From Sandaracinus amylolyticus (lineage in GTDB: Bacteria; Myxococcota_A; Polyangia; Polyangiales; Sandaracinaceae): a DNA stretch of 64,000 nucleotides. Both the position numbers and the translations under genes were made by a program. Below are positions 1-17,598 of the stretch, piece by piece. The DNA lies in NCBI RefSeq assembly GCF_021631985.1, contig NZ_CP070225.1, forward strand, positions 1,860,001 through 1,924,000, written 5' to 3'. Every line of letters begins with the position of its first letter. The first letter of the stretch is position 1. Below the pieces are notes generated by a model that had not been told where the DNA came from, did no database searches, and saw nothing but the letters and a program-made list of their open reading frames with translations.

Positions 1-2988
1 GATGGTCGCGTGATCGGTGGGTGGCGCGAGGTACACGCCGAGCAGCGCGGAGAGCAGGCTCGCGCTGCGCTCGCGCCGCGCGCGGCCGACCCGCAGCAGC
101 TCGATCGCGACGGTGTGCTGGCGGGGATCGTCGGCGCGAAGGACCGCGCGGCGCAGCAGATCGCGCTCGGTGATCACCTCGAGCATGCCCGCGCGATCGA
201 GGGCGCGCTCGGCCACTCGCTCGCGGACCCGGGAGTCGCCGCTCTTGCCCGGCTGATCGTGATGGCGACGTCGCGACTTCGTCGCGCGCGCGCTGGGCGC
301 GGCGAGGTCGTGCTCGTCCTCGTATCGATCCCAGCGATCCTCTTCGGACGCGGTGGAGCCCTCGAGGCGGATGCGCAGCGCGGCGAGCCGATCGCGCACC
401 CGCTCGACCGCGTGCAGCACCTCGTCGAGCTCCGCGCGCGCCTCGCCCGAGAGCGCGCGGCGTCGCTGCATGAGCTGCGCGGTGCGCTCCTCGAGCAGGC
501 CGCGCTCTTCGATGGTGTGCACCTCGTCGAGCACGTCGGGGAGCAGCGGCTCGAGCTCGATCGCCGGACGATCGAGCAGCGCGGCCATCGGGTGCTCGGC
601 GAGCACGGGATCGGCCTCGACCAGCGGATCGGTGCGCGCGCTGAACCCGCTCGCGTCCGACGCGAGGCGCACGATGCGCATGCGCCCCCGCGGCCCGCCC
701 GCGATCTCCTCGGCGAGCAGAGAGCCCACGCGATCCTCGAGCCACCGCTTCACCGAGCGCGCGCCGCCTTGGACGTCGAACGCCTCGTGCGCGATGCGCG
801 TCACCGCGCGCTCGTTCGCGAACACGTAGACGCCGCGCTCCGCGAGGCCGCGACGTGCGAGCAGCTTCGAGAGCTCCTTCTCCGCGACGCGCTCCGCGAC
901 CTCGAGCGAGAGGGGATCGAACGGAACGACGCGATCGATGCGGTTGAAGAGCTCGGGCGGGAAGAACTCGCGCACCGCGCGCAGCACGTCGAGGCGCTGC
1001 CCCTGCACCGAGGGATCGAACCCGATCGCGGCGCCGCTGCGCCCGCCGAGGTTCGACGTCATCAGCACGACGGTGTGCGTGAAGTCCGCGGTGATGCCCG
1101 CGGCGTCGGTGAGGCGACCTTCGTCGAGCAGCTGCAAGAGGAGCTGCAGCACCGCGGGGTGCGCCTTCTCGATCTCGTCGAGCAGCACCACGCAGAAGGG
1201 CTGCTCGCGCACCCGCCGCGTGAGCATGCCCTCGGGATCCCAGGCGTCGCCGATCAAACGTGCGACCGCGCCGGGGTGTCCGAGCTCGCCCATGTCGATG
1301 CGCACGAGGCGCTGCTCGCCGCCGTAGAGCCAGCGCGCGATCGCGCGCGCGAGCTCGGTCTTGCCGGTGCCGGTCGGGCCGGTGAGCAGGTAGACGCCGT
1401 AGGGCCGGCGCGGATCGACCAGGCCCGCGCGGATCCGCATCGCGAGATCGACCGCGGCGCGCACCGCGGCGGGCTGGCCCATCACGTCGCGCGCGAAGAA
1501 CGCTTCGACGTCGGCGGGATCGAGCGGCGCGTCGGGCTGCACCAGCGACGCGGGCAGCCCGGTGCGGCGCGCGAGCTCGGCGACGACGTCGGCGGGTCCG
1601 ACCGCGCGCGGCGGATCGTCGGGGCGCTCGGGGGCGCGACCGACCGCGCGCAGCAGGTCGAGCGCCTTGCCCGGGAATGCGCGCCCCGGCGAGAGCCCAC
1701 CGCCGAGATCGAGGATCGCGCGGTACGCGAGCGGCGCGAAGCGCACGCGGCGCTCGTGCTCGAGGCGACGCGCCTCGTGGAACATCATGCGCAGCACGAC
1801 ATCGACCGGCGGCTCGTGCACCAGCACGCGCTGGAAGAGCTCGGCGAAGCCCGGCGCGTCGTCCTCGAGCCGCTGCAGCTGCTCGGGTGTGACCTCGCCG
1901 ATCATCACGATCTCGCCGCGCGCGAGCGGGCCCCGGAACACGTCGGCGAAGCTGCGATCGCTGCCGGTGTGACGCCCCGCGCGACCGAACGTGTGCAGGT
2001 CCTCGACGCGCAGCACGACGGGGCGCGCGCGGCAGTCCGCGAGCACCTCCATGCAGCGCTTCTCCCACTCGCCGAGGTGCGACATGCCCGCGATCGTGCG
2101 GCGCGCGGAGATCGACCAGACCTCGGTGACGCGATCGAGGTTGCGGTGCGCGGACCAGCCTTCCGCGTCGAGCAGATCGACGATCGCACGATCGACGAGC
2201 GTGCTCTTGCCGACGCCCGGCGCGCCGACGACGAGCGTCGACTGCTTGCGGGGCGCGCAGAGCAGGCGCTGCAGCTGCTCGCGGTGCGGCGAGCGCGGCA
2301 TGCCGGTCGCGAGCGTGCCTTCTGCCGCCCGCACGGTGAGGTTGGTGCCGATGCGCGGGAGCACGCGCAGCCCGCCGCGCTTCTTCTTGCCGCGGGCGTC
2401 GACCATCGAGTCGAGATCGAGATCGGCGAAGGGATCGCGCTCGCGCTCGGGGATCCCGTCGAGCAGCGACGTCACCTTCGTCGAGAACGACATCGAGGTG
2501 ATCGAGTCCTTGCCGTCGGTGGTGAGCACCTCGAGCTCTTCGTCGCTCAGATCGGCCCAGCGCGACGCGAAGAAGACCCTCGCCTGATCTTCGAGCGGCC
2601 GCTCGGGATCGAGCGCGAACCACTCGTGCTGGCGGAGCGGGTGATAGACGAGCGTCACGCGATGCTCGGGCGTGGCCCATCGCGGCTCGAGCACGAGCGG
2701 GTGCGCTCCGATGTGCGCGCGACGCCCGAGCCGCTCGCCGTCCAACGAGAGCTCGAGTCGGACGCGGCGCAGCTCGAGACCACGCGCCGGCTCGAAGCGC
2801 GCGAGCTCCAGCGGCGGAAGGCCCTCGAGCACCGCGCGCAGACGCTCGACGAGCGCCTGCTGCGCGCGCACTGCGGATGCGCCCGAGCGCGTCACGACGT
2901 GCGGCGAGGTGCCGAGCGTCGTCCACTCCCACTGCGCGCCGGTGCACACCTGATAGACCGCGACGCGGAACGAGAGGCGATGGCTCAC
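1..2988 (-). CDS. ClpB-like double AAA+ ATPase, C-terminus cut by window edge
   Basis: Open for 996 codons with no stop before the window edge, so the C-terminus is missing. The GTG start overlaps the TGA stop of the upstream ATPase gene (GTGA, 2985-2988) and is preceded by GAGGAGG, which points to translational coupling. The first AAA+ module has Walker A GAPGVGKST near 2200 and a weak Walker B (VVLRVEDLHT). The second, Clp/HSP100-type module has Walker A GPTGTGKTELA near 1375, Walker B VVLLDEIEKAH near 1170 and the sensor stretch VVLMTSNLGG. No Clp N-terminal repeat domain is visible; the first roughly 240 residues are unlike it. After the D2 module come coiled-coil-like helices (about 590-420) and a segment that may begin the same release-factor-like domain seen in the neighbour. 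Expected role: ATP-driven protein remodelling in the cytoplasm. Substrate unknown. Confidence 0.85.
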   Translation of the reverse strand, partial: MSHRLSFRVAVYQVCTGAQWEWTTLGTSPHVVTRSGASAVRAQQALVERLRAVLEGLPPLELARFEPARGLELRRVRLELSLDGERLGRRAHIGAHPLVLEPRWATPEHRVTLVYHPLRQHEWFALDPERPLEDQARVFFASRWADLSDEELEVLTTDGKDSITSMSFSTKVTSLLDGIPERERDPFADLDLDSMVDARGKKKRGGLRVLPRIGTNLTVRAAEGTLATGMPRSPHREQLQRLLCAPRKQSTLVVGAPGVGKSTLVDRAIVDLLDAEGWSAHRNLDRVTEVWSISARRTIAGMSHLGEWEKRCMEVLADCRARPVVLRVEDLHTFGRAGRHTGSDRSFADVFRGPLARGEIVMIGEVTPEQLQRLEDDAPGFAELFQRVLVHEPPVDVVLRMMFHEARRLEHERRVRFAPLAYRAILDLGGGLSPGRAFPGKALDLLRAVGRAPERPDDPPRAVGPADVVAELARRTGLPASLVQPDAPLDPADVEAFFARDVMGQPAAVRAAVDLAMRIRAGLVDPRRPYGVYLLTGPTGTGKTELARAIARWLYGGEQRLVRIDMGELGHPGAVARLIGDAWDPEGMLTRRVREQPFCVVLLDEIEKAHPAVLQLLLQLLDEGRLTDAAGITADFTHTVVLMTSNLGGRSGAAIGFDPSVQGQRLDVLRAVREFFPPELFNRIDRVVPFDPLSLEVAERVAEKELSKLLARRGLAERGVYVFANERAVTRIAHEAFDVQGGARSVKRWLEDRVGSLLAEEIAGGPRGRMRIVRLASDASGFSARTDPLVEADPVLAEHPMAALLDRPAIELEPLLPDVLDEVHTIEERGLLEERTAQLMQRRRALSGEARAELDEVLHAVERVRDRLAALRIRLEGSTASEEDRWDRYEDEHDLAAPSARATKSRRRHHDQPGKSGDSRVRERVAERALDRAGMLEVITERDLLRRAVLRADDPRQHTVAIELLRVGRARRERSASLLSALLGVYLAPPTDHATI

Positions 2989-5900
2989 GGCGCCTCCTCG
3001 TCGAGCGTCTCGCTCGTGGTGGGCACGTCGAGCGATCCGCGCACCGACGAGGCTGGCTGGCCTCCGCCCATTCGCCAGAGATGCTCGAACACGATCGCCT
3101 CGAGCTCGCGCGCCGCGTGCGCAGGATCGAGCGCGAGCCGCTCGCGACCATCGAGGATCGCGAGCGTGCGCGTCGCGAGATCCCAGTCGCGCACCGTCGT
3201 CGCGCGCGCCGAGATCTCACCACGAGGGCGCGGCTCGGTCATCGTCGGTGCGAGCCAGGACGCGTCGTCGAGCGGGCCCTCGGTGCGCAGCACCGTGATC
3301 GTGAGGTGCTCGCGTCGCTCGCCGTGCCTCCAGCGGTGCAGGCCCGCCTCCGCCGCGAGCAACGCGCCCGCGTCGCGTCCGCGCATCGCGAGGATCACCG
3401 AGGTCGACGCACGATCGTCGCGCTCGAGGCGCTCGCGTGCCTGATCGGCCGTGCGCGGCGGGCCCCAACGTCGTGTGATCGGCCAGTCCTCGCCGCGATC
3501 GCCCTCGAGATGCATCCGCCCGACCCATCCGAGCTCGCTCTCGCGATCGAGCAGCGGGAGCAGCCAGCGATCGAGCGTGCGTCCACCACGCTCCTCGACG
3601 AGCAGCACGATCGAATCGGCGCGCAGCGGCGCGACGAACACGCGCCCGAGCGCGCGTCGCAGCGCCCACTCCGACGCGCGCGCCTCGGGGAGCAGGGTCT
3701 CCGCGCCACGTCCCGAGAGCACCGATGCGAGCGCGAGCTCTTCGATCGACTCGAGCTCGCGCATCTGCTCGATCACGCGATCGCTGGGATCGGCGAGGCG
3801 ATGGTGCTCGGTCCGCAGCGCGCCGATCTCGCGCGCCGGCACGTCGCCGCGCCGTCGATCCTGCTCGTCGACGTCGCCCCACGACATCTCGGACACCAGC
3901 AGCTCGACGCGGGCGCGCACGTCCGTGAACGCTGGCGCCGCGAGCCACGCCTGAGCACGACGGCGCACCTCGGTGATCGCCTCGAGCTCGATCACGTCGC
4001 GACGACCGGTGCGTCCCTCGCCGCGCTCGATCTCGATCACCAGCCCGTCGATCACCGTGCGCGCGAGCGGCGAGGTCTTGCTCGCCGGCTCGTCCTCGTT
4101 CCGAACGCGCACCACCGCGTGGCGCGCGCGATCGCCGAGCCGCGCGAGGAGGTGCGCCGCCGGCGCGACGAGCGAGTCCTCGACGTGACGCCGGAGCGCG
4201 CGCGCGCCGTAGTGCTCGCTGGTGCCCACCGTCGCGAGGCGGTCGGCGGCGGCGTCGCTCACCACGAGCGCGACGCCGTGCTCCACGAGCCCGCGTCGCT
4301 GCTCGATGCGCGCGAGGAGCAGCCGCACGACCTGCCGCATCTCGATCGTCCCGAGCGGATGCAGCGGCACGATGCGATCGATGCGGTTCACCAGCTCGGG
4401 GCGGAACGTACGCTCGACCGCGCGCAGGTAGTGCTCGTCGTCGGGCACCGCGCGCGCACCGATGCCGATCGACGCCGCGCGATGCGTCGCGCCGAGGTTG
4501 CTCGTCATCACGACGATCGCGTCGTGGAAGTACGCGGTGCGACCGCGTCCGTCGGTGAGCCGCCCTTCACCCGTGACCTGCAGCAGCAGATCGAACACCG
4601 CCGGATGGGCCTTCTCGATCTCGTCGAGGAGCACCACGCAGAACGGCTGCTGGCGCACCGCGCGGGTGAGCAGACCGTCGCCGCCCTCCGCGCCGATCAG
4701 GCGCATCGCCGCGCTCGGATCGGCGTACTCGCTCATGTCGAGCCGCAGCAGGCGATCGGGCGATCCGAAGAGGTGCGCGGCGAGCGTGCGCGCGAGCTCG
4801 GTCTTCCCGACGCCGGTGGGCCCGACGAAGAGGAACGTCGCGAGCGGCTTGTCGCCCGGCGCGAGATCCGCCTTCACCACGCAGAGCGTGTCGACGACGC
4901 GGCGCACCGCTTCGTCCTGACCTGCGATGCGCGCCGCGAACGATGCGCGCAGCTCGTTCGCGTCGAGGCGTCGATCGGGTCGCAGCAGCGCTTCCGGCAC
5001 GCCGCTCGCGATCGAGAACGCGCGGAACACGCGCGCTGCGTCGATCGACGCGGCGCGATCGGCGCGTGCCTCGGACTCCTCGGCGGCGCGGATCTCCTCG
5101 AGGAGGCGCAGCGCCTTGCCGGGGAAGGGCTGGTACGGGAGGAAGCGCTCCGCGAGATCGAGGAGCGCGACACGTCCCTCGGCATCCGGCATCGCGCGCT
5201 CCGGCGCATGGGCGCGCGACCACGCGACGGCGGCATCGAGCGCGCGCTCGGTGCTCGCACGATCGAGCGGCGCGACGCGCACGCGATGGAGCAGCGACGC
5301 GAAGCCCGGCTGTCGCGTCTCGAGGCGATCGGCTGCGTCGTCGGAGATCTCGCCCAGCAGTCGCAGCCGCCCCTGCTCGAGCCAGCTCTTGAGCGACGAG
5401 ACGAGGTCGACGCTGCCCTCGGCGCGATCCGCGAGCAGGTCGCCGAGGTCGTCGAAATAGAGGAACGCCGAGAGCGTCTCCGCGGCCTCGATCACCCGGC
5501 GCAGCCGCTCCTGCCACTGCCCGAGGAAGCTCATCCCCGCGACGAGCTGCGCCGCCGACGTCTGGTACACGCGCGGCACGCGCCCCGCCGCGCGCTCGCG
5601 ACGAATCCACGCGTGCACCACCGCGCTCTTGCCGACCAGCGGCGCACCGACGATCGCGACGCGAGACGTCTCGCGCGTCGCGCAGAGCGCCGCGAGCATC
5701 GCGACCTCGCGATCGCGTCCGATCACCGGCGGCGCTTCTTCGGGGAGCTCGCGGTGCAGCGGGCGCGCGACGGTGCGCAGCAGATCGTCGGCGCGCTTCT
5801 GCGCTTCGTGCTGCGCGCGACGCTTGCGCTCCGCGGCGCTCGTCGCGTCCGTGCTCGCCTCGAGGGGCACGCGCACCGGCTCGAGCGTGTGCCCGGCGAC

Positions 5901-6398
5901 GCCCATCAGCGCCCGTCGCGCATCGGGCGTCGGCGCGAGCGCGGCGAGCAGTCGCGCGGCCTCGCGCTTCGCGACCTCGTCGACGTCCTCGTCCGCTGCC
6001 GCCCATCCCGCTGCGGCGAGCGTCGGGAAGAGCAGCCACGCATCGCGCGCGCCCTCGCGATCGGGCCCGGTGGGCACCACGACACAGGGCACGTCGATCG
6101 GGATCGGGCGCTGGATGCGACGGGGCAACGAAGGATCGCGCAGCTCCGCGCGCACGGCGCGCAAGGTCGTCGTGATCGGCAGCGCGTGACGCGCCACGCG
6201 CTCCGCGCTTCGTGCTTGCGAGAGCGTCGCCGCGAGGAAGAGGCGCAGCTCTTCGATGGCTTCGCCTTCTCGCTCGAACGCGATCGCGCCCGGGTCGACC
6301 GGCGAGCGCACCAACGCGCGTCCGCCTGGGAGCGCCTGCACCAGCGCGAGCGTGTCGATGTCTCGCGCGCCTCGGACGTCGTTCGGCCCCTCGCTCAC
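2985..6398 (-). CDS. ClpB-like double AAA+ ATPase with release-factor-like C-terminus
   Basis: 1137 residues, GTG start. AAA+ module 1 has Walker A GAPLVGKSAV and Walker B LYFDDLGDLL. Module 2 has Walker A GPTGVGKTELA, Walker B VVLLDEIEKAHPAVF and sensor VVMTSNLGA, which is the ClpA/ClpB D2 signature. The N-terminus (about 200 residues) is not a Clp_N domain. After D2, residues about 860-1110 are unusual: a helical region, then SIVLLVEERGG...DRWLLPLL (from 929), VILAMRGRDAGALLAAEAGLHRW (split here as VILAMRGRDAG / ALLAAEAGLHRW, to 1023), then REHLTITVL and a tail with LAILDG. These follow, in order, the PCRF part of bacterial RF1/RF2 (gGdEA..LL.MY, I.G..AYG.L..E.GVHR, RRHTSFA) and its C-terminal VLDG, but there is no RxSGxGGQ segment between them. 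The ATPase identity is secure; the release-factor likeness is my reading of motifs. Confidence 0.88.
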   Translation of the reverse strand: MSEGPNDVRGARDIDTLALVQALPGGRALVRSPVDPGAIAFEREGEAIEELRLFLAATLSQARSAERVARHALPITTTLRAVRAELRDPSLPRRIQRPIPIDVPCVVVPTGPDREGARDAWLLFPTLAAAGWAAADEDVDEVAKREAARLLAALAPTPDARRALMGVAGHTLEPVRVPLEASTDATSAAERKRRAQHEAQKRADDLLRTVARPLHRELPEEAPPVIGRDREVAMLAALCATRETSRVAIVGAPLVGKSAVVHAWIRRERAAGRVPRVYQTSAAQLVAGMSFLGQWQERLRRVIEAAETLSAFLYFDDLGDLLADRAEGSVDLVSSLKSWLEQGRLRLLGEISDDAADRLETRQPGFASLLHRVRVAPLDRASTERALDAAVAWSRAHAPERAMPDAEGRVALLDLAERFLPYQPFPGKALRLLEEIRAAEESEARADRAASIDAARVFRAFSIASGVPEALLRPDRRLDANELRASFAARIAGQDEAVRRVVDTLCVVKADLAPGDKPLATFLFVGPTGVGKTELARTLAAHLFGSPDRLLRLDMSEYADPSAAMRLIGAEGGDGLLTRAVRQQPFCVVLLDEIEKAHPAVFDLLLQVTGEGRLTDGRGRTAYFHDAIVVMTSNLGATHRAASIGIGARAVPDDEHYLRAVERTFRPELVNRIDRIVPLHPLGTIEMRQVVRLLLARIEQRRGLVEHGVALVVSDAAADRLATVGTSEHYGARALRRHVEDSLVAPAAHLLARLGDRARHAVVRVRNEDEPASKTSPLARTVIDGLVIEIERGEGRTGRRDVIELEAITEVRRRAQAWLAAPAFTDVRARVELLVSEMSWGDVDEQDRRRGDVPAREIGALRTEHHRLADPSDRVIEQMRELESIEELALASVLSGRGAETLLPEARASEWALRRALGRVFVAPLRADSIVLLVEERGGRTLDRWLLPLLDRESELGWVGRMHLEGDRGEDWPITRRWGPPRTADQARERLERDDRASTSVILAMRGRDAGALLAAEAGLHRWRHGERREHLTITVLRTEGPLDDASWLAPTMTEPRPRGEISARATTVRDWDLATRTLAILDGRERLALDPAHAARELEAIVFEHLWRMGGGQPASSVRGSLDVPTTSETLDEEAP

Positions 6399-7834: not shown

Positions 7835-8737
7835 ATGACGATCCGGGACCTCGGTTACCGCCCGTACGACGGTCCACGACTGCCACCGTCGAACGCGGTC
7901 TGGGTCCTCTTCCGCTACGGCCTCGGACGCGCGTGGGCGTCGTGGCTCGTGAAGCTCGCCGCGTTCACCGCGTGGCTCCCGGTGATCGGCTTCGTCATCG
8001 GCTCGTGGGCCGCGAACTCCGCGATGGAGGCGGTCCCGCCCGAGGCGCGCGCCGAGGTGCTGCCGCCGATCGTGCATCTCTTCGCCGACGAGTCGCGCGC
8101 GCTGAGCGGGCTCTTCGGTCTCGAGACCTGGTTCTTCGTGAGCCTCGTGACGGTCGGCGCAGGCGCGGGCGCGATCGCGCACGACCGCACCCATCGCGCG
8201 TTCCAGTTCTACTTCGCGAAGCCGGTCACGCCCGAGACCTACCTCGCGGGCCGCGTCTCCGCGATCGCGACCTGGGTCTTCGCGATCGCGTTCGTCCCCG
8301 CGTTCCTCTACTGCATCGCGCTCGCCGCGTTCGGGCCGCGCGAGGAAGCGCTCGACACGCTCGGGCTCCTGCTCCCCGCGCTCGTGTTCTCGCTGCTCCT
8401 CGCGATCGTGATGTCGATCGCGTCGGTCGCGGTGTCGTCGCTGAGCGCGAGCCGCGCGCTCACGATCTCGACGTGGCTCACGGTGTTCGTCGTGCCTCAC
8501 GTCATCGCAGGCGTCGTCGACGTGGTCTCGCGCGCGAGCGGTCGCCAGGAGGGCTTCCCCTGGCTCTACCTCGGCTCGTTCACCGCGATGCTCGGCACGG
8601 TGCGCGACGCGCTCTTCAAGCTCGACGATCCCAGCGCGCTCGAGTGGTACCACGCGGCCGGCGCGCTCGGCGTGATGGTCGTCGGGCTCGGAGCGCTCGC
8701 GCTGCATCGCCTGCGCGCGCAGGAGGTGATCACGTGA
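7835..8737 (+). CDS. ABC-2 type transporter permease
   Basis: 300 residues. An integral membrane protein with about six hydrophobic segments: KLAAFTAWLPVIGFVIGSWA near the N-terminus, FFVSLVTVGAGAGAIAHD, WVFAIAFVPAFLYCIALAAF, LLLPALVFSLLLAIVMSIAS, LTVFVVPHVIAGVV, and AGALGVMVVGLGALALHRL at the end. The segment AHDRTHRAFQFYFAKPVTPETYLAGR is the typical cytoplasmic element of ABC-2 exporters next to the ATPase contact. It overlaps the ATPase gene by GTGA and forms one unit with it and a second permease, most likely an efflux or lipid/polysaccharide export system. Substrate unknown. Confidence 0.85.
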   Translation: MTIRDLGYRPYDGPRLPPSNAVWVLFRYGLGRAWASWLVKLAAFTAWLPVIGFVIGSWAANSAMEAVPPEARAEVLPPIVHLFADESRALSGLFGLETWFFVSLVTVGAGAGAIAHDRTHRAFQFYFAKPVTPETYLAGRVSAIATWVFAIAFVPAFLYCIALAAFGPREEALDTLGLLLPALVFSLLLAIVMSIASVAVSSLSASRALTISTWLTVFVVPHVIAGVVDVVSRASGRQEGFPWLYLGSFTAMLGTVRDALFKLDDPSALEWYHAAGALGVMVVGLGALALHRLRAQEVIT

Positions 8738-9795
8738 GCGCGGCCAGCATCCAGGCGATCGGCGTCTCGAAGTGGTACGGCAAGGTCACCGCGCTGCAGG
8801 ACGTCAGCCTCCAGCTGAAGCCCGGCGTGTGGGGCCTGCTCGGCCCGAACGGCTCGGGCAAGACGACCTTCATGCGCCTCTGCGCCGGGCTCTCGAAGCC
8901 GAGCCTCGGTCAGATCCGCGTGTGCGGTGACGCGCCCTTCGCGAACCCCGAGGTGCTGCGCCGCATCGGGCTCTGCCCCGAGGCCGACGCGCTCTACGAC
9001 GAGCTCACGGCGCTCGAGTTCGTCACCGCGATGGCCGAGCTCTCCGGCTACTCGCGCAAGGACGCGCGCGACCGCGCGGTGAAGGCGCTCACCGACTTCG
9101 GCCTCGACAAGGCGATGGAGCGCAAGATGGGCGGCTACAGCCGCGGCATGCGCCAGCGCGCGAAGCTCGCGCAGTCGGTGGTGCACGATCCCGACGTGCT
9201 GCTCCTCGACGAGCCGCTCACCGGCACCGACCCCACGTCGCGCCACGTGATCCTCGATCAGGTGCGCATCCGCGCGAACGCGGGCGCGGTGGTGCTCTTC
9301 TCGACGCACGTGCTGGTCGAGGTCGAGGCGCTCACCGAGCAGGTGCTGCTGATCGCGCGCGGTCAGCTCGTCGCGCAGGGCAAGGTCCACGAGATCCGCG
9401 ACCTCCTCGAGGAGCACCCGCACCACGTGCGCGTCGACTGCGATCGCCCGCGCGATCTCGCGGCGGCGGTGCTCGCATCGCCCGAGGGAGAAGGCGTGCT
9501 CGGCATCTCGTTCCCTTCGTCCACCGAGGTCGAGCTCGAGACGCGCAAGCCCGACGAGACCTACTCGGTCATCGCGAAGATGATCGTCGAGGGCGGCTTC
9601 ACGGTGCGCTCGCTGACGAGCCCCGACGCGTCGCTCGAGGCGCTCTTCCACTACCTCGTCGAGCGCAGCGGCCGCATGGCGGGCACCGGCTCCGACGCCG
9701 CGAGCGGATCGGCGAAGCCCTACCAGGCCGCGCTCTCACCCGGCGCCGCATCTGCAGGCGCCCGCACCGAGAAGAAGAAGGGAGCACGCGCGTGA
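8734..9795 (+). CDS. ABC transporter ATP-binding protein
   Basis: 353 residues, GTG start in a GTGA overlap with the upstream permease. Walker A GPNGSGKTT (about residues 35-43), signature YSRGMRQR, Walker B VLLLDEPLTGTD and the switch histidine in FSTHVLVEVE are all present, so it should hydrolyse ATP. The C-terminal third (about 230-353) is an extra domain common in ABC-2 export ATPases, ending in a short Ala/Gly/Lys-rich tail. It lies between two permease genes and overlaps the second by GTGA, so the transporter is probably a heterodimeric membrane pair driven by one ATPase. Confidence 0.92.
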   Translation: MSAASIQAIGVSKWYGKVTALQDVSLQLKPGVWGLLGPNGSGKTTFMRLCAGLSKPSLGQIRVCGDAPFANPEVLRRIGLCPEADALYDELTALEFVTAMAELSGYSRKDARDRAVKALTDFGLDKAMERKMGGYSRGMRQRAKLAQSVVHDPDVLLLDEPLTGTDPTSRHVILDQVRIRANAGAVVLFSTHVLVEVEALTEQVLLIARGQLVAQGKVHEIRDLLEEHPHHVRVDCDRPRDLAAAVLASPEGEGVLGISFPSSTEVELETRKPDETYSVIAKMIVEGGFTVRSLTSPDASLEALFHYLVERSGRMAGTGSDAASGSAKPYQAALSPGAASAGARTEKKKGARA

Positions 9796-10580
9796 GCCCT
9801 CCGCCCGTTCCCGACTTCGCGAGCGCGCTCTCGGCCTCGCTGCGACTCTCGTGGACGCGCCTGCTGCGCGGACGCAAGGTGCGCCTCGGCGCCGCCGCGG
9901 TGGTGCTCGTCGTCGTCGCCGCCGTCGCGGTCCGCTATCTGATCGATCCGCCGGAGCCCGAGCGCGTGGTCGAGGCCGCAGTCCGCGTCGGCTTCCTCAA
10001 CATGCTCGTGTTCCTCCTGCCGTTCCTGTTCACGGCGGGCGCGATCGCGGAAGAGGTCGAGAACCGCACGCTGCCGTACCTCACGTTGCGACCCGCGGGC
10101 CGCATCGCGATCACGCTCGGCAAGTTCTTCACCGGCGCGGCGCTCAGCATCTTGCTGCTCGCGGGCGGCGTGCTCGTGATCCACGTCGCGTCGTTCGCGA
10201 CCGATCCCACGCCGATGATCGAAGAGCTGCCCGACACGCTGCGCATGATCGGCGCGCTCTCGCTGCTCGCGCTCTGCTACTCGGCGCTCTGTCTGCTCTG
10301 GGGCTCGCTCGTCGTCGAAGCGGGTGGGCTGCTCGCGACCCTTCACCTCGCGGTGATCGAGTACGGCTTCTCGTGGCTGCCCGGTCTCGCGCGGCTCGTG
10401 TCGATGAACCACTTCGCGTCGGAGCTCGCAGGCTTCGAGCGCACGGGGTGGGGCGCGGAGAGCGTGCCCGACGTCGACACCTGGATCTGCGCGACGATCA
10501 TCGCGGTGGTGACGCTCCTCTATCTCGTGCTCGCGTCGGTCGTCGTGCGCACGTCGGAGCTCGGATTCGGGAAGGCGTGA
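9792..10580 (+). CDS. ABC-2 type transporter permease
   Basis: 262 residues, GTG start overlapping the ATPase stop. One hydrophobic segment follows the basic N-terminus (GAAAVVLVVVAAVAVRYLI); further segments are NMLVFLLPFLFTAGAIAEEV, AALSILLLAGGVLVIHVASF, LSLLALCYSALCLLWGSLVV, LLATLHLAVIEYGF and a C-terminal ATIIAVVTLLYLVLASVVV. EEVENRTLPYLTLRPAGR is the conserved coupling region of ABC-2 permeases. It completes the permease-ATPase-permease operon and probably pairs with the first permease in the membrane. Confidence 0.85.
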   Translation: MSPPPVPDFASALSASLRLSWTRLLRGRKVRLGAAAVVLVVVAAVAVRYLIDPPEPERVVEAAVRVGFLNMLVFLLPFLFTAGAIAEEVENRTLPYLTLRPAGRIAITLGKFFTGAALSILLLAGGVLVIHVASFATDPTPMIEELPDTLRMIGALSLLALCYSALCLLWGSLVVEAGGLLATLHLAVIEYGFSWLPGLARLVSMNHFASELAGFERTGWGAESVPDVDTWICATIIAVVTLLYLVLASVVVRTSELGFGKA

Positions 10581-10585
10581 TCGTG

Positions 10586-10591
10586 TAGGAT
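10586..10591 (+). promoter_or_regulatory. candidate -10 element of the PP2C-like gene
   Basis: TAGGAT lies 13 bases before the ATG at 10605, and no Shine-Dalgarno sequence stands between. It matches the hexamer before the ATPase pair. A -35 element is not evident. Confidence 0.35.
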
Positions 10592-11270: not shown

Positions 11271-13118
11271 TCACGCGCGCCGACGACGGCGCGCGATCAC
11301 GAAGAGCGCGATCAGCACGAGCACGCCGGGCGATCCCGCGCCGCCGAGCGCGACGCTGCATCCGCCCGAGCTGCTCGGACGAGGGCGACACACGGTCACG
11401 TCGCCCTCGCGCACGCAGTCGTGGCCGAGCGGGCACGATCTCGCGCCACCGCACGTGGCGGTGCACGCGCCGTCGATGCACGTGCCCTGCGCGCACGCGA
11501 CGCTCCCGTCGCACGCCTCGCCGAGCACCGGCGCGCTCGGGATGCAGCGCATCTCGCCGTCGGCGTCGGCGCAGGTGCCGCCGGGACACGACACGGCATC
11601 GGTGCAGCGACGCGCGCAGAAGCGCTCGCCGGTCTCGCGCGCGAGGCAGCGCGCGTCGTTGCAGTCCACGTCGTCGCGACAGGTGCCGAAGGGCCCGCCG
11701 CGCTCACCGCGCGCGCAGAAGCCGTCGACGCAGCGCATGCCGCGCCCGCAGTCTCCGTCGCCTGCGCAGATCGCGGTGCACTGCACCGCACCGTCGACCT
11801 CGCCGCACCCGAACGTCGAGCACTCGCTCGCGAGCTCGCACACCTCACCGCGCCCACGACCGCCGGGACGCGCGCTCGGCGCCACGCACACGCCGCAGCT
11901 GCCCGCGTCGGCGCTGCACACCTCGACGGCGGGGCACGTGACCGAGTCGCCGCGGCACGGCGTCGCGCACACGCCGCCTTCGCAGCGCAGCGACACGCAC
12001 TCGGTGTCGGCGCTGCACGCATCGCCCTCCGAGCCCGAGCCCGACGTTCCCGGCGCGCACAGGCCCTCGCAGCCCGTGCTCGTCGCGCAGTAGAAGCCCT
12101 CGACCGCGACGGGATCGCCACCGAAGGGCGGCACGATCTCGCCGCAGCTCGTCGCGGGCGCGAGCGGATCGCAAGGGCGCGAGCAGCGACGCGCCCCCCC
12201 GATCTCGGCGCACAGCGCGCTCGGCGGCGCGCCGTCGCGCAGCGCCTCGGGGAGCGGACCGAACGCGCACTGATCGTCGCGCTCGCACGCCTCGCCGAGC
12301 GCGAGACATCCCTCGTCGATCTCGCCGTCGCAGTCGTCGTCGAGCGAGTTGCAGAGCTCGTCGCCCGACGCGACGCACGCGCCGCTGCGCACGATCGCGG
12401 CGTCGATCACGTCGATGTGCGTGTCGATGCGGTTCCACGCATCGAGCATCGCGGGGCAGTCGCCCTGGTTCGCCGCGAGCCCGTACGACGCGACACCGAC
12501 GATCTGGCGGGGCCGCGTCCCGTCGCCCTCGAGGATGATCGGTCCGCCCGAGTCGCCCTGGCAGATCGTGTTGCGCGCCTCGAGCACCGTCGTCGTGACG
12601 TTCTCGATCGTCGTGGTCGTGCGGTACTTGATGCCGACCTCGCGCTCGCGCGTCGTGCCGAACCCGATCGCCGTGACGGTGCTGCCGACGAGATCGGTCG
12701 GCGGCTCCCGCCGCACCGCGATCGGCTCCACGCCCTCGACCGGCTCGCGGAGGATCAGCAGCGCGATGTCGGTGCCGTCGCTGATGAAGAAGGGACCGGG
12801 CGTCGTCACCACCTGCTGCACGCGATGGTTCGTGGTCGCGCCCGAGCGATTGCCGACGCCGACCGCGAAGAACGCCGCAGGCGCGGGGCTCGTCGCGGTC
12901 TGCTGCTGCACGCAGTGCTTCGCGGTCAGCACCACGCGATCGGTGATCAGCGTGCCGGTGCACGCACCGATCACGGCTTGGATGAGCACCACCGCGGGCT
13001 CGCCGGTCTCGCGCTCGCCGTCGACGATCGGCGCGCCGAGACCCCTCGAGAGCGGAGTCGACTCACACCCCGAGATCGACGCGACGAGCAGCAAGAAGAG
13101 AAAGCCCGGACGGTTCAT
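11271..13118 (-). CDS. trypsin-like serine protease lipoprotein with MYXO-CTERM-like tail
   Basis: 615 residues. I chose the ATG at 13118 because GGAGG precedes it and it begins a lipoprotein signal (LLLVASISGC, Cys18). The S1 protease domain spans about 30-245, with the triad His68 (LTAKHC), Asp117 (GTDIALL) and Ser190 (CQGDSGGP). One MopE-like motif follows (CNSLDDDCDGEIDEGC, about 264), then a long Cys-rich region of about 300 residues resembling tandem EGF-like or matrix modules. The end reads SSSGGCSVALGG, a hydrophobic helix and RRRRR: the layout of MYXO-CTERM sorting signals, with the invariant Cys at 587. Likely exported and surface-anchored. Having both a lipobox and a MYXO-CTERM-like tail is odd. 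Confidence 0.88.
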   Translation of the reverse strand: MNRPGFLFLLLVASISGCESTPLSRGLGAPIVDGERETGEPAVVLIQAVIGACTGTLITDRVVLTAKHCVQQQTATSPAPAAFFAVGVGNRSGATTNHRVQQVVTTPGPFFISDGTDIALLILREPVEGVEPIAVRREPPTDLVGSTVTAIGFGTTREREVGIKYRTTTTIENVTTTVLEARNTICQGDSGGPIILEGDGTRPRQIVGVASYGLAANQGDCPAMLDAWNRIDTHIDVIDAAIVRSGACVASGDELCNSLDDDCDGEIDEGCLALGEACERDDQCAFGPLPEALRDGAPPSALCAEIGGARRCSRPCDPLAPATSCGEIVPPFGGDPVAVEGFYCATSTGCEGLCAPGTSGSGSEGDACSADTECVSLRCEGGVCATPCRGDSVTCPAVEVCSADAGSCGVCVAPSARPGGRGRGEVCELASECSTFGCGEVDGAVQCTAICAGDGDCGRGMRCVDGFCARGERGGPFGTCRDDVDCNDARCLARETGERFCARRCTDAVSCPGGTCADADGEMRCIPSAPVLGEACDGSVACAQGTCIDGACTATCGGARSCPLGHDCVREGDVTVCRPRPSSSGGCSVALGGAGSPGVLVLIALFVIARRRRRA

Positions 13119-13205
13119 GCGAAGCCTCCGGGCGTCGGACGCTACTGGAGCGATCCCGCGCTGAATACCCATTCACGCGCGGCGCGCGTGCGCGAGGTCA
13201 CGTGA

Positions 13206-16200
13206 TCAGAACGTGCACGTCCCGGTGGTCGTGGAGCAGCGCAGGCTCGGGTCGATCTGCGCGCAGAACTCGTCGCCGCCAATCAGCGTGCAGCGCGGCG
13301 CGCAGAGCCCGATCGTGTCGGCCCAGCACACGTTGATGCCGCCGCAGTCCGCATTGCTCGTGCACCGGCACGCGAACTCGTCGGACAAGCCGTTGCCGTT
13401 GTCGTCCGAGCCGTTGCAGCACTCGCCGACGTCGGGCACCGGCGAGCAGTCGCCGTCGGCGCAGTCGGACGTTCCGTCGCAGTCGTCGTCGCGACCGTTG
13501 GTGCACATCGCGACCGAGCCCTCGACCGGCACGCACATCGAGCCGGCGTCGCGGGGCCCGGCGTCGCGCGGAGGCGGCGGGATCCCCGCGTCGCGCGCGG
13601 CGCACAGCGGCGAGGCGACGCACTCGCGATCGAGGCAGTCGACGAGCCCGTCGCAGTCCTCGTCGGCACCGCCCCCGCAGCGCTCGGGTCCGGTGGGCAC
13701 GCAGCACATCGGCGTCCCGGCGCACAGCGGATCGTCGCAGTCGATGCGCCCGTTGCAGTCCTCGTCGATGCCGTTGCCGCACTGCTCGGGGCCCTGGAAC
13801 ACGCAGCACGCGGGATCGCTCGAGCACGCGAAGTCCGCGCAGTCCGGCGCGCCGTTGCAGTCGTCGTCGACGCCGTTGGCGCACTGCTCGGCGCCGGTGG
13901 GCACGCAGCACGAGGGATCGATCTGGCAGTCGGGATCGGCGCAGTCGGTGCGACCGTCGCAGTCCTCGTCGAAGCGATTCGTGCACTGGTCCTCGAACCC
14001 GGTGCACGCGCCGCAACCGGGCTCGAATTCGCAGTCGGGATCGTCGCAGTCCTTCAGCGCGTCGCAGTCCTCGTCGAACCCGCTGTTGCAGATCTCGAAG
14101 GGCAGGCACACGAGGCAGAGGGGCTGTCCCGCGCAGTCGGGATCGTCGCAGTCGAACGATCCGTCGCAGTCGTCGTCGCGCCCGTTGCGGCACGCCTCCG
14201 CCACGCAGCCGGGCTGACACGAGGGATCGCGCGCACACTGCGGATCGTCGCAGTCGACGAGGTGATCGCAGTCCTCGTCGACGCCGGTCCCGCAGATCTC
14301 GAGCGGCAGACAGAACGCGCAGATCGGCTGTCCCGCGCACTCGCCGTCGTCGCAGTCGGCGTCGCCGTCGCAGTCGTCGTCGCGCCCGTTGCGGCAGGTC
14401 TCGGTGGGCGCGCAGGTCAGGCACGCCGGGCTCCGCGCGCAGTCGGAGTCGTCGCAGTCGACCTGCATGTCGCAGTCGTCGTCCGCGCCGTTCGTGCAGG
14501 CCTCGCGCGTGCAGCTCACGCACGTGGGCGCAGCGCGGCAGTCGGAGTCCGAGCAGTCCGCGCGACCGTCGCAGTCGTCGTCACCACCGTTCGTGCAGAC
14601 CTCGGTCACGCACACGCGACACGAGGGATCGAGCGCGCAGTCGGAGTCGTCGCAGTCGACGCGCAGGTCGCAGTCCTGATCGGCGCCGTCCGCGCAGATC
14701 TCGGGGCGCGGGATGCAGCTCGAGCACACCGGGTCGCGCGCACAGTCGGAGTCGGCGCAGTCGGTGCGACCGTCGCAGTCGTCGTCGACTCCGCCGGTGC
14801 AGCGCTCGGGGCGCGGCGTGCAGACCGCGCAGATCGGATCCGCGAAGCAGTCGGGATCCTCGCAGTCGAAGCGGTTGTCGCAGTCCTCGTCGGCGCCGCC
14901 GCGGCAGAGCTCGGGGAAGCACATGCGGCACGCGGGATCGCGACCGCACGAGATCGAGTCGCTGCAGTCGGCGAGACCGTCGCAGTCGTCGTCGACCGCG
15001 TTGTTGCAGACCTCGGCGCGCGGGCGGCAGCAGCTCGGGCTCGTGGTGCAGTCGGGATCGTCGCAGTCGACGCGTCCATCGCAGTCGTCGTCGGTCGCGC
15101 CGGTGCACTGCTCGGGGCGCGGCGTGCAGCAGAGCGGCGAGCGCGCGCAGTCCGTGTCGGCGCAGTCCAGGCGATTGTCGCAGTCGTCGTCGTTCCCGTC
15201 GTCGCAGAAGACCTCGCGCGGGGTGCACATGCGGCACGCGGGATCGGCGGTGCAGTCGCTGTCGTCGCAGTCGACGCGACCGTCGCAGTCCTCGTCGTCG
15301 CCGTCGGCGCACGCGGTCTCGCGCGCGGCGCACGCGCAGTCGGGGCTGCGCGCGCAGTCGGGATCGTCGCAGTCGATGCGCATGTCGCAGTCCTCGTCGA
15401 GCCCGTCGTCGCAGCGCGCCTCGCGGCGCGTGCACATGCGGCACTCGGGGCGACCCGCGCACTCGGGATCGAGGCAGTCGATGCGGCCGTCACAGTCGTC
15501 GTCGACCATGTCGCGACACGCGACCTCGCGCGGTCCGCGCGGCACGCAGGTGAGGCACTCCGCGGTCATCGCGCAGGTGGGATCGTCGCAGTCGACCGCG
15601 CCGTTGCAGTCGTTGTCGACGCGATCACGGCAGAGCTCGGGCACGCCCGGGCGCACGCGCGGATTGCGATCGTCGCAGTCGGCGCCGCCGCAGCTCACGG
15701 CGGGCACACCGTCGCCGTCGTCGTCCCGCAGCGTGGTCGTGCAGGCGTTCACCGCCTCGTCGCAGCGATCGCTCGTGCACGCGTTGCCGTCGTCGCAGCG
15801 GGGCGCGGGGCTGCGCACGCATCCCATCGGGCTGCAGCGCTCGGCGCCGTTGCAGAAGAGCGTGTCGTCGCAGAGCGTGTCGCGCGCGGTGGTGGTGCAG
15901 CGATCGAGCGTCTCGCTGCACTCGTCGAGCGTGCAGTCGACTCCGTCGTCGCACGCGACGCGCGGGCCGGGGGCACAGCGACCGGCGACGCACTGCTCGG
16001 CGCCGTTGCAGAACGAGCCGTCCTGGCACTCCATCGCGGTCGTGCAGCGGCGCACCACGCAGCCGTCGATCGGCGTGCAGATCTCGCCCGTCGCGCAGCG
16101 CGACGAGTCGGGGATCGACTCGCAGCTGCGCGTCGCCTCGACGCAGCGATCGCTGGTGCAGGCGACCGTGTCGTCGCAGACCGGCGCTGCGCCGCGCACG

Positions 16201-16520
16201 CACACGCCGCTGCGGCAGCGCTCCTGCCCGTTGCAGAAGAGATCGTCGTCGCAGTCCTCGTCGAAGTTGCAGGCGCCACCGTCGCCGCCGTCGCGCCCGG
16301 CATCGCCCGCGTCGTCGATCACGATGCCGCCGTCGCCGGCATCGCCCGCATCGTCGCCGCCATCGCCGGCGTCGATCGCCGCGTCCATGCCGCCGTCGTC
16401 CGGGTCGATCCCGCGGCCGGCATCGCGGAACAGATCGAGCTCGCTCCGCCCACATCCCGCGACGACGAGCAGTGACGCGATCGACGCGACGAAGTGAAGA
16501 CGAGCACTGCGAACGGACAT
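13206..16520 (-). CDS. MopE-type repeat lipoprotein
   Basis: 1104 residues. The ATG at 16520 follows GGGAGG and begins a lipoprotein signal ending in LLVVAGC; the open frame upstream is spurious. After the lipobox comes an Asp/Gly/Ala linker (about 30-90), then roughly 250 residues of Cys-rich modules of the form CDDGxxCTxDxCxxxxxxC. About 22 tandem copies follow of a 36-42 residue unit with core NGxDDDCDGxxDCxDxDCxxxPxC (PF11617-like, named after the copper-binding secreted protein MopE). The acidic, paired-Cys core suggests calcium or metal binding and disulfide cross-linking. Presumably an outer-surface structural or adhesive protein. It lies 87 bases upstream of the protease gene on the same strand. 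Confidence 0.85.
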   Translation of the reverse strand: MSVRSARLHFVASIASLLVVAGCGRSELDLFRDAGRGIDPDDGGMDAAIDAGDGGDDAGDAGDGGIVIDDAGDAGRDGGDGGACNFDEDCDDDLFCNGQERCRSGVCVRGAAPVCDDTVACTSDRCVEATRSCESIPDSSRCATGEICTPIDGCVVRRCTTAMECQDGSFCNGAEQCVAGRCAPGPRVACDDGVDCTLDECSETLDRCTTTARDTLCDDTLFCNGAERCSPMGCVRSPAPRCDDGNACTSDRCDEAVNACTTTLRDDDGDGVPAVSCGGADCDDRNPRVRPGVPELCRDRVDNDCNGAVDCDDPTCAMTAECLTCVPRGPREVACRDMVDDDCDGRIDCLDPECAGRPECRMCTRREARCDDGLDEDCDMRIDCDDPDCARSPDCACAARETACADGDDEDCDGRVDCDDSDCTADPACRMCTPREVFCDDGNDDDCDNRLDCADTDCARSPLCCTPRPEQCTGATDDDCDGRVDCDDPDCTTSPSCCRPRAEVCNNAVDDDCDGLADCSDSISCGRDPACRMCFPELCRGGADEDCDNRFDCEDPDCFADPICAVCTPRPERCTGGVDDDCDGRTDCADSDCARDPVCSSCIPRPEICADGADQDCDLRVDCDDSDCALDPSCRVCVTEVCTNGGDDDCDGRADCSDSDCRAAPTCVSCTREACTNGADDDCDMQVDCDDSDCARSPACLTCAPTETCRNGRDDDCDGDADCDDGECAGQPICAFCLPLEICGTGVDEDCDHLVDCDDPQCARDPSCQPGCVAEACRNGRDDDCDGSFDCDDPDCAGQPLCLVCLPFEICNSGFDEDCDALKDCDDPDCEFEPGCGACTGFEDQCTNRFDEDCDGRTDCADPDCQIDPSCCVPTGAEQCANGVDDDCNGAPDCADFACSSDPACCVFQGPEQCGNGIDEDCNGRIDCDDPLCAGTPMCCVPTGPERCGGGADEDCDGLVDCLDRECVASPLCAARDAGIPPPPRDAGPRDAGSMCVPVEGSVAMCTNGRDDDCDGTSDCADGDCSPVPDVGECCNGSDDNGNGLSDEFACRCTSNADCGGINVCWADTIGLCAPRCTLIGGDEFCAQIDPSLRCSTTTGTCTF
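13380..15640 (-). repeat. tandem array of about 22 MopE-type repeats
   Basis: In-gene DNA repeats of roughly 105-125 bases. Each carries a recurring core that on the plus strand reads like CCGTCGCAGTCGTCGTC, the complement of the DDDCDG codons. Copies differ at many third positions, so the array is old, not a recent expansion. The last copy at the C-terminus has lost its cysteines (NGSDDNGNGLSDE). Confidence 0.85.
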
Positions 16521-16545
16521 CTGCGACCTCCCTGGACCCGGGACG

Positions 16546-16551
16546 ATTCTA
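16546..16551 (-). promoter_or_regulatory. candidate -10 element of the MopE-repeat gene
   Basis: TAGAAT on the minus strand matches the sigma70 -10 consensus at 5 of 6 positions. It sits about 25 bases before the ATG at 16520, leaving room for the GGGAGG ribosome site. No good -35 is visible. Confidence 0.4.
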
Positions 16552-16648
16552 CCGGGGACGCCCGCCGGACCGTGAGCGTCGTCTGCGCGCACCGACGCTC
16601 GGTCCGCGGAGTGGCCGGGTCCCCGGAGTTCCGTCGCGCTTCGATAAG

Positions 16649-16662
16649 CGCTTCGCGAAGCG
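16649..16662. promoter_or_regulatory. 14-base perfect palindrome in a divergent promoter region
   Basis: CGCTTCG-CGAAGCG is a perfect palindrome, and the half-site CGCTTCG occurs again at 16637-16643, 12 bases upstream. It lies between the divergent MopE-repeat and extensin-like genes. It could be a regulator site or a cruciform; nothing nearby identifies the binding protein. Confidence 0.3.
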
Positions 16663-16715
16663 GGCCGCCGTTTTCTTCTCCATCGTCGTTCGACGATCCG
16701 ACCATTCGCTCCGAG

Positions 16716-17471
16716 ATGACGCGCCGTCTGTTCGCCTCGGTCCTCGCGCTCCTGCTCCTGGCCGGCTGGGTCACCGACGACGTGCCGTTGCCGCGTGATC
16801 TCGAGGCGGAAGGCATCGACGAGGACTGCGGCACCGTGCTCTCGCCACCGAGCGGCGCGCGTCGTGCGGCGGCGATCGCGGGGCGCGGGCGCGCGATCGG
16901 CGCGCTCGATCGCGCGGCGTGCGAGACGGCGCTGCGCGGCGCGGGCGTCGCGTTCGAGGCGGTCTCCGCGAGCGAGGCGAGCGGCGTCGAGCAGGCGATC
17001 CGCCTCGCGGGGCCGCTCGACGGAGTGCGCATCACGCCGGACGAGGGCGTGCACTCGGTGATCGACTGTCGTCTCGCGGTCGCGCTGCTCGCGTGGGCGC
17101 CCGACCTGCGCGCACAGGGGGTCGCGCGGGTCGAGCACGTCTCGATCTATCGACCAGGGGCGCGCGTCGCGGGGAGCCGCCGGGTGTCGGGCCACGCGCA
17201 CGCGCTCGCGATCGACGCGCTCGCGTTCGTGCTCGACGACGGGCGGCGTCTGCCGGTGCTCGACGCGTGGCTCGATCGCGCGCGAGGCGTCGATCCGTGC
17301 ACGACCCACGAGGGCGACGACGACGGCACGGCGCGCATGAGGGCCGCGGTGTGCGCGGCGGTGCAGCACGATCTGTTTCAGGTGGTGCTCACCCCGCACC
17401 ACGACGACGCGCACGCGAATCACGTGCACCTCGAAGTACGACCCGGCGTCGACTGGAGCTTCGTGCATTGA
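16716..17471 (+). CDS. extensin-like family protein (secreted or membrane-anchored)
   Basis: 251 residues. The ATG at 16716 begins MTRRLFASVLALLLLAGW, a signal peptide or N-terminal anchor, so I prefer it to the longer open frame. The C-terminal domain (about 125-251) has the hallmarks of the extensin-like_C family (PF06904): VIDCRLAVALLAW, VEHVSIYRPGA, SGHAHALAIDALAF and the terminal HHDDAHANHVHLEV. The His/Asp arrangement resembles zinc peptidases of the VanX/MepA type, so a cell-wall or peptide-cleaving role is possible but not proven. Two cysteines (DPCTTH, AAVCAA) may pair. It is followed by a possible hairpin terminator. Confidence 0.82.
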   Translation: MTRRLFASVLALLLLAGWVTDDVPLPRDLEAEGIDEDCGTVLSPPSGARRAAAIAGRGRAIGALDRAACETALRGAGVAFEAVSASEASGVEQAIRLAGPLDGVRITPDEGVHSVIDCRLAVALLAWAPDLRAQGVARVEHVSIYRPGARVAGSRRVSGHAHALAIDALAFVLDDGRRLPVLDAWLDRARGVDPCTTHEGDDDGTARMRAAVCAAVQHDLFQVVLTPHHDDAHANHVHLEVRPGVDWSFVH

Positions 17472-17484
17472 GGGGGTCCGGGTC

Positions 17485-17506
17485 CCGGGTCCGGAAAGCG
17501 ACCCGG
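17485..17506 (+). terminator. possible hairpin after the extensin-like gene
   Basis: CCGGGTC, an 8-base loop and GACCCGG form a perfect 7-pair stem 14 bases after the stop codon. A C-rich run follows instead of a T-run, so this is not a classical intrinsic terminator. The surrounding GGGTCC repeats could form alternative folds. Confidence 0.35.
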
Positions 17507-17570
17507 CCCCCGCCCCCGACCCGGAATAATCCGCCTCCATCCGCGTTCCCGCGCGCGCTCGGCTCGGGAA

Positions 17571-17598
17571 TTGACACGTCAAGGCCAACGGCTATCGT
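17571..17598 (+). promoter_or_regulatory. sigma70-type promoter of the Gld-like operon
   Basis: A consensus TTGACA (17571-17576), a 16-base spacer and TATCGT (17593-17598) stand about 80 bases before the ATP-binding gene at 17677. The leader of about 70 bases includes a CCGGAGAGG ribosome site region. This is one of the two clearest promoters in the window. Confidence 0.65.

Follow-up and report, generated by a model that had tools for sequence, protein, structure and literature searches.

The window analysed here, a stretch of 64,000 nucleotides from Sandaracinus amylolyticus (G000:C1:1860001-1924000, in a two-contig genome of 10.96 Mb), begins with two Clp-type genes in tandem on the minus strand, here termed A and B, whose products combine a double-AAA+ ATPase of the Clp/Hsp100 type with a C-terminal extension predicted to fold like a bacterial class-I release factor (RF). 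Gene B runs off the window edge and is complete in the genome (G000:C1:1859527-1862988), its predicted RF body occupying the C-terminal residues ~955-1150, mostly outside the window. It is followed, with an ATGA overlap, by gene C, read from the genome, a third Clp gene of 757 aa that terminates directly behind the D2-small domain and carries no RF body. All three products are double-AAA+ Clp-type proteins, B and C being 41% and 39% identical to A across the AAA+ part, and relatives in other genomes take the form either of the same A-B-C cassette or of a single gene (see below). A preliminary description of the sequence had reported two full double-AAA+ Clp genes coupled by a GTGA overlap, both without a Clp N-domain, and both observations held: no Clp N-domain was present among the Pfam matches of A, nor among those shown for B and C, and A and B each have instead an N-terminal region of their own of ~190 aa, the two versions being related to one another (hhalign P 1.2e-5). 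The features of A and B are collected in Table 1.

Table 1. Positions in the window of genes A and B and of their predicted parts, with the basis of each assignment
Feature	Position	Strand	Description	Basis or remark
Gene A	2985..6398	-	Clp-type double-AAA+ ATPase with predicted C-terminal release-factor body; 1137 aa, GTG start	Orthologues in same gene order in related genomes
Gene B (5' part in window)	1..2988	-	Second Clp-type ATPase	1153 aa in full
GTGA overlap	2985..2988	-	A stop / B start; putative translational coupling	Sequence
A residues 1-200	5799..6398	-	N-terminal region; no Pfam match	Related to N-region of B
A residues ~205-470	4989..5786	-	AAA+ domain 1; Walker A GAPLVGKS, pore loop AGMSFLGQWQER, aromatic not Tyr	NCBIfam ClpA model and motifs
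A residues ~490-770	4089..4931	-	AAA+ domain 2 and D2-small; Walker A GPTGVGKT, Walker B VVLLDEIEKA; GYVG deleted	Pfam and alignment
A residues 780-1137	2988..4061	-	C-terminal extension as modelled (predicted release-factor body)	AlphaFold2, pLDDT 87.1, pTM 0.83
A residues ~796-925	3624..4013	-	Helical part, predicted equivalent of RF domain 1	Model helices 17-146; RF2 chain-wide alignments from model residue 22
A residues ~927-1039	3282..3620	-	Predicted equivalent of RF domain 2; PxT/SPF codon-reading motif lost	Model against RF1; motif count
AAEAGLHRW	3330..3356	-	RF 'ExGVHR' motif	Sequence
A residues ~1067-1115	3054..3200	-	Predicted equivalent of RF domain 4	Secondary structure and alignment ranges of model

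The resemblance of the C-terminal part of A to a release factor, also proposed in the preliminary description, was recovered by profile-profile comparison, by a blind search of the PDB, by structure prediction and by a blind fold search. In hhalign comparisons with 25 RF1 and RF2 sequences of the phylum, the A extension scored 65-70 (P ~1e-8), against maxima of 20 for column shuffles and 28.5-29 when the RFs were shuffled in blocks of five columns. A profile of the A-extension family, searched blind against 177,635 PDB sequences, placed RF1 or RF2 in all of the top 22 positions (E 1.9e-5 to 0.12), with the next match at 2.4, and in a blind Pfam scan of 27 A extensions PCRF was the family matched by the most members (6), weakly, with a best value of 0.0047. 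The B extension scored 36-40 against RFs, with shuffles reaching 23 at most, and gave no RF match in either the blind PDB sequence search or the blind Pfam scan, so that its identity rests on the fold together with the hhalign comparison. Pfam and NCBIfam scans of the single A and B extension sequences found no RF family, PCRF remaining absent for A even at E 10, and a scan of the genome contigs with the A extension found nothing. A family profile is therefore needed for PCRF to be seen, and the hidden Markov model search for PCRF (PF03462) suggested in the preliminary description would have failed on window A alone, in contrast to the single-gene relatives, most of which pass the cut-off.

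These single-gene relatives came to light when the A-extension profile matched open frames of 917-1322 aa elsewhere in the phylum, the genes themselves being put at about 915-1100 aa. They hold Clp AAA_2 and PCRF within a single frame; of six, five exceed the curated Pfam gathering score of 24 bits for PCRF (47.2, 40.2, 34.5, 34.1 and 26.3 bits) and one, at 20.2, falls short of it. They match prfB at 2e-17, and when their C-terminal parts were made into a profile, RF2 was recovered from the PDB at 1.6e-26 and the alignment to RF extended over 303 columns (P 5e-26). The same profile has matches in 373 of the 379 genomes of the phylum, mostly in RF-sized frames, which are RF genes judging by their lengths, and when it was run over the open reading frames of the fetched loci, window A (8.7e-7) and the other A and B proteins ranked directly behind the true RFs.

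The predicted structures agree with these matches. The first 39 PDB matches of the A model in Foldseek were all class-I RFs (best 1.7e-7), RF1, RF2, mtRF and PrfH extending down to E 0.16 and the first unrelated chain standing at 0.25. In VIA-align the A model superposed on RF1 over 231 residues (Z 12.9, rmsd 4.3) and its superdomain 2/4 over 146 residues (Z 12.1, rmsd 3.2); one unrelated helical chain reached Z 11.9, on the helical part only. Model residues 148-336 span RF1 residues 104-352, yet only ~141-146 residues are aligned within this range, which is read as showing that domain 3, the GGQ domain, has been replaced in the model by a short linker; a stretch of ~30 residues leads to the domain 4 equivalent at the place where the GGQ domain would stand. 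The absence of this domain had been anticipated in the preliminary description. On the evidence of the model, then, A residues ~796-1115 are predicted to fold as domains 1, 2 and 4 of a bacterial class-I RF that has lost its GGQ domain. The B extension, of which the preliminary description had seen only the beginning and had likened to that of A, has the same module: its model (pLDDT 85.6) gave as its first 44 matches entries named as release factors or as ribosomes with a bound RF (best 4.4e-6; RFs throughout down to E 0.024, first unrelated match 0.29) and superposed on RF2 with Z 12.4 and an rmsd of 6.1 over 253 residues. The RF body is thus entire in the predicted folds of both A and B as regards domains 1, 2 and 4. 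No aeRF1-type fold was listed by the fold searches of A or B, absence from the list not amounting to exclusion.

Taken together, it is close to certain that these proteins constitute a family of ClpA/ClpC-like double-AAA+ ATPases with a degenerate class-I RF C-terminus (domains 1-2-4, from an RF2-like gene), encoded by one gene or by a coupled A-B-C trio, and for which neither stop-codon reading nor peptidyl-tRNA cleavage is expected. With bacterial RF1 and RF2 (prfA/prfB) they share the ExGxHR motif, in the single-gene form the R-Y/D motif of domain 4, clear homology through intermediates, and domains 1, 2 and 4 that are alike in fold and in order; the differences are the fusion to a Clp ATPase, the deletion of the PxT/SPF loop, and a GGQ domain that is absent from A and B and eroded in the single-gene form. 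Of the RF motifs read in A by the preliminary description, GGRTLDRWLLPLL and AAEAGLHRW stood and REHLT did so roughly; the final VLDG did not, since the corresponding ILDG lies within a beta-hairpin that precedes the last helix and shows no conservation.

In the single-gene form the core positions G173, L180 and ExGxHR of domain 2 and R, Y and D of domain 4 are retained relative to RF, the E, G, H and R of ExGVHR and the R-Y/D motif being invariant or nearly so. The PxT/SPF loop corresponds to a 7-residue deletion in the single-gene alignment; no SPF motif was found in A or B, and a single SPF string occurs among 30 single-gene forms. No conserved GGQ was found in 27 A, 24 B and 30 single-gene sequences, scattered GGQ strings being present. 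The single-gene form keeps domain 3 in part, with a consensus of KADGQ or RGAGT at the GAGGQ loop and the stretch behind RSQ deleted. Given the known roles of the lost PxT/SPF and GGQ motifs, neither the reading of stop codons nor the release of peptide is to be expected of the RF body. A comparison of two congeners places the extension under purifying selection, with a dN/dS of 0.15-0.23 as against 0.07-0.12 for the AAA+ part. In one single-gene fusion (L129) the sequence GQFGGQLRSRL lies close to where the GGQ loop would be, possibly a late stage of loss. A GGQ string (GGGQPAS) also occurs in A at residues 1112-1114 (window 3057-3065, minus strand), in the disordered C-terminal tail; it looks accidental, and a catalytic role for it was ruled out, only the congener sharing it among 27 A homologues.

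In its ATPase part, A has the Walker motifs, two AAA+ domains and D2-small domain of Clp/Hsp100 double-AAA+ proteins, with Pfam matches to AAA_2 (8.7e-41) and ClpB_D2-small (7.9e-11) and an NCBIfam ClpA match over residues 186-745. The D1-D2 stretch of 580 aa is close in length to that of the genome's ClpA-like paralogue (577), as against 707 and 702 in its ClpB-type paralogues, and a block of ClpA length implies that there is no M-domain. ClpP partners have LGF, IGF or VGF in the loop behind sensor 1; [LIVM]GF stands there in the majority of B, C and single-gene copies, A has GF, GI or GL (IGI in window A), and in the ClpB-type rows the loop is missing. All nine ordinary Clps have G[YF]V at the D2 pore loop, whereas none of the 48 family members in the alignment, which comprise A, B, C and single-gene proteins and three more distant sequences, retains GYVG there, the loop having been deleted or exchanged for other residues. 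The absence of an M-domain, the ClpB equivalog score (306.6 bits, cut-off 1232), the mostly [LIV]GF loop and the missing D2 GYVG rule out a ClpB-type disaggregase, the designation used in the preliminary description. The proteins are more like the ClpA/ClpC-type unfoldases in having two AAA+ domains without an M-domain, D2-small and, for the most part, the [LIV]GF loop, and differ from them in the lack of a Clp N-domain match in A, the deleted D2 GYVG, the C-terminal RF body and a ClpA equivalog score of 303 bits (cut-off 993). The D2 deletion points to a motor that threads more weakly, or that remodels its substrates instead of unfolding them completely. The aromatic residue of the D1 pore loop is Tyr in 10 of 11 C, 9 of 13 B, all six members of one single-gene class and none of 12 A sequences, an uneven loss among coupled paralogues that fits a mixed ring of specialised subunits.

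Relatives of the A extension were present in 15 of 57 related genomes, and its profile gave 32 strong matches (E < 1e-40) in the 379 genomes of the phylum, which is taken from the named relatives to be Myxococcota. The preliminary description had called for a survey of Clp-like proteins for the same fusion; in addition to the A-B-C cassettes, the single-gene fusion occurs, in two sequence classes, in at least 33 of the 379 genomes, and either form in roughly 60. Wherever the contig was long enough, the gene order in the fetched loci was A-B-C, with reading-frame overlaps common; for a few of these loci coverage or scoring did not extend to the third gene. In a tree of the AAA+ parts A, B and C form one group each with full support; the single-gene form falls into two groups with weak support between them, so that this tree leaves a single origin of the fusion undecided. 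The named contigs with the single-gene form, going by the titles of metagenome-assembled genomes (MAGs) as deposited, belong to Myxococcota, Myxococcaceae and Sandaracinaceae and to the gammaproteobacterial Woeseiaceae (L157) and Granulosicoccaceae (L169). Among individual loci, one cassette (L031:6768-19901) has several kb between A and B, including a long frame similar to open reading frames at other loci; a diverged A-B-C cassette (L187:1-6684) lies in the MAG of an uncultured 'proteobacterium' outside the main set; and L221 holds a lone C-like gene. An assembly error or frameshift fusion was ruled out, since dozens of genomes have the fusion alongside canonical RF genes that stand separately. 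The host genome also encodes RF1, RF2, a short GGQ-domain protein, transfer-messenger RNA (tmRNA), an NFACT/RqcH-like protein and ClpP, which makes A-B-C an extra system, and the presence of RF1 and RF2 rules out a replacement of the normal RFs.

Targeting by the RF body is the most economical proposal for function. In this proposal A, B and C would form a mixed Clp ring able to dock on ClpP via its [LIV]GF loops, with the RF bodies hanging from the ring as targeting arms; these would bring the motor, independently of the codon, to the ribosomal A site or to a partner of RFs on stalled, damaged or hibernating ribosomes, where the ring would pull on a protein and pass it to ClpP. This arrangement is put forward tentatively, at less than even probability. 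It is favoured by the conserved A-B-C order, by purifying selection on the RF part, by the [LIV]GF loop in most B, C and single-gene copies, by the presence of ClpP in the genome and by the uneven retention of the D1 pore Tyr. The link to ribosomes is drawn purely by analogy, with Vms1 (see below) and with Balon, an RF-like protein that occupies the A site despite having no codon-reading and GGQ motifs (PMC10901736); the chloroplast protein PrfB3 is a counter-precedent. Combined with the family assignment, ribosome targeting by such a ring is the best explanation as a whole, one that falls only a little short of an even chance. A reading that goes further, possible though on balance somewhat doubtful, is that the cassette encodes an undescribed ribosome-directed unfolding machine, in which a hetero-oligomeric A-B-C ring (or a homo-ring of the single-gene form) is led by its dead RF bodies to ribosomes that are stalled, damaged or idle, from which it extracts a protein or on which it degrades one. 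Such a ring would be the bacterial equivalent, in covalently joined form, of the eukaryotic pairing of Vms1 with Cdc48: Vms1 is an RF-like protein that works with the AAA+ protein Cdc48 (PMC6514570), and the likeness of this ribosome-associated quality control system (Vms1/ANKZF1 and Cdc48) lies in an RF-like protein paired with a double-AAA+ unfoldase. It differs in that Vms1 belongs to the unrelated aeRF1 superfamily and binds Cdc48 by a short motif, without fusion.

Several observations weigh against ribosome targeting. The loss of the codon-reading loop and the GGQ domain would remove much of the hold of an RF on the ribosome, and since the residues that read the stop codon are among those lost, docking on the ribosome or on tRNA-peptide, the function suggested in the preliminary description, cannot be assumed. 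C has no RF body, and RF1, RF2, a short GGQ-domain protein, tmRNA and an NFACT/RqcH-like protein are all present in the genome already. No neighbouring gene of the cassette or of the single-gene form was conserved in the loci compared, and hence no translation gene. Finally, the disappearance of the substrate-gripping D2 loop of ClpA, ClpB and ClpC from all 48 aligned members argues against ordinary processive threading. In a rival reading, the RF body was exapted as a protein-binding or assembly module with no role on the ribosome, holding the A-B-C ring together or recognising an unrelated client. In favour of it are the loss of the codon-reading and GGQ elements, the divergence from RF at most of the invariant positions of domains 2 and 3, the lack of conserved translation genes nearby, and C, which shows that at most some subunits need the body. 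A pure scaffold would not obviously require an RF body that is whole in domains 1, 2 and 4 in both A and B, nor core ExGxHR and R-Y/D motifs that vary hardly or not at all among the single-gene proteins, and this explanation is considered unlikely, if the most serious of the rivals.

Two further readings retain a function for the RF fold in binding RNA or the ribosome. The body could be an RNA-binding arm through which the Clp motor remodels an RNA-protein complex, for which PrfB3 of land-plant chloroplasts, an RF2 relative without SPF and GGQ that protects petB mRNA, is a precedent with exactly such a pattern of loss (PMC5897788); the single-gene form likewise lacks SPF/PxT and the GGQ loop. 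PrfB3 is, however, a free protein of land-plant organelles with no ATPase, and the surroundings of the genes suggest no RNA target, which leaves an RNA-binding arm rather improbable. Alternatively, in a hibernation or anti-stress factor, the RF body could plug the A site, the ATPase installing or removing it without proteolysis, as suggested by Balon, an RF-like bacterial hibernation factor that resembles A and B in lacking the codon-reading and GGQ motifs and nonetheless occupies the A site (PMC10901736). Loss of the D2 pore loop points the same way, to a remodeller and not a threader. Balon differs in belonging to the aeRF1/Pelota family, acting with EF-Tu and having no ATPase domain; most family copies have the [LIV]GF loop typical of ClpP partners, and a large multi-subunit ATPase would be costly for a plug, so that a role in hibernation has a low probability, below that of the RNA-binding arm. 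A chance similarity of an extension made up of a coiled coil and an alpha/beta part would account for the lack of a Pfam match to the single window sequence at E 10, and coiled coils can inflate profile scores. The globular part of the A extension by itself nonetheless scored 36-39.5 against RF, compared with a maximum of 29 in shuffles, and with the blind fold and sequence searches returning only RFs and with intermediate sequences joining the families, chance likeness can be regarded as ruled out, its probability being negligible.

Both parts of these proteins belong to known families, and what appears to be new is the fusion, the three-gene cassette and the common deletion of the pore loop. 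No description of a Clp-RF fusion was found in open papers on Clp with PCRF, on myxobacterial Clp proteins with release factors or on RF-AAA fusions, subscription papers being outside the scope of the search. Clp unfoldases and release factors are both universal and heavily studied, and their union raises the testable question of whether, in bacteria, a motor is brought to ribosomes by a dead RF in the manner of Vms1 with Cdc48 in eukaryotes. The family also offers a natural series, from intact RF2 through a single-gene form with an eroded GGQ region to A and B without it and C without the body, in which to follow how an essential translation factor is turned into something else.

Elsewhere in the window, an ordinary-looking ABC exporter set (permease, ATPase and second permease) lies upstream of A on the other strand (7835-10588, plus strand). 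Beyond it, on the minus strand, 11271-13172 encodes a trypsin-like serine protease whose long tail is rich in Cys and which ends C-terminally in a membrane/Arg-rich segment of the myxobacterial sorting type, and 13206-17588 is a frame of 1460 aa that looks like a secreted metal-binding repeat protein, containing tandem Cys/Asp repeats on the pattern CxNGxDDDCDGxxDCxDxDCxxxPxC.

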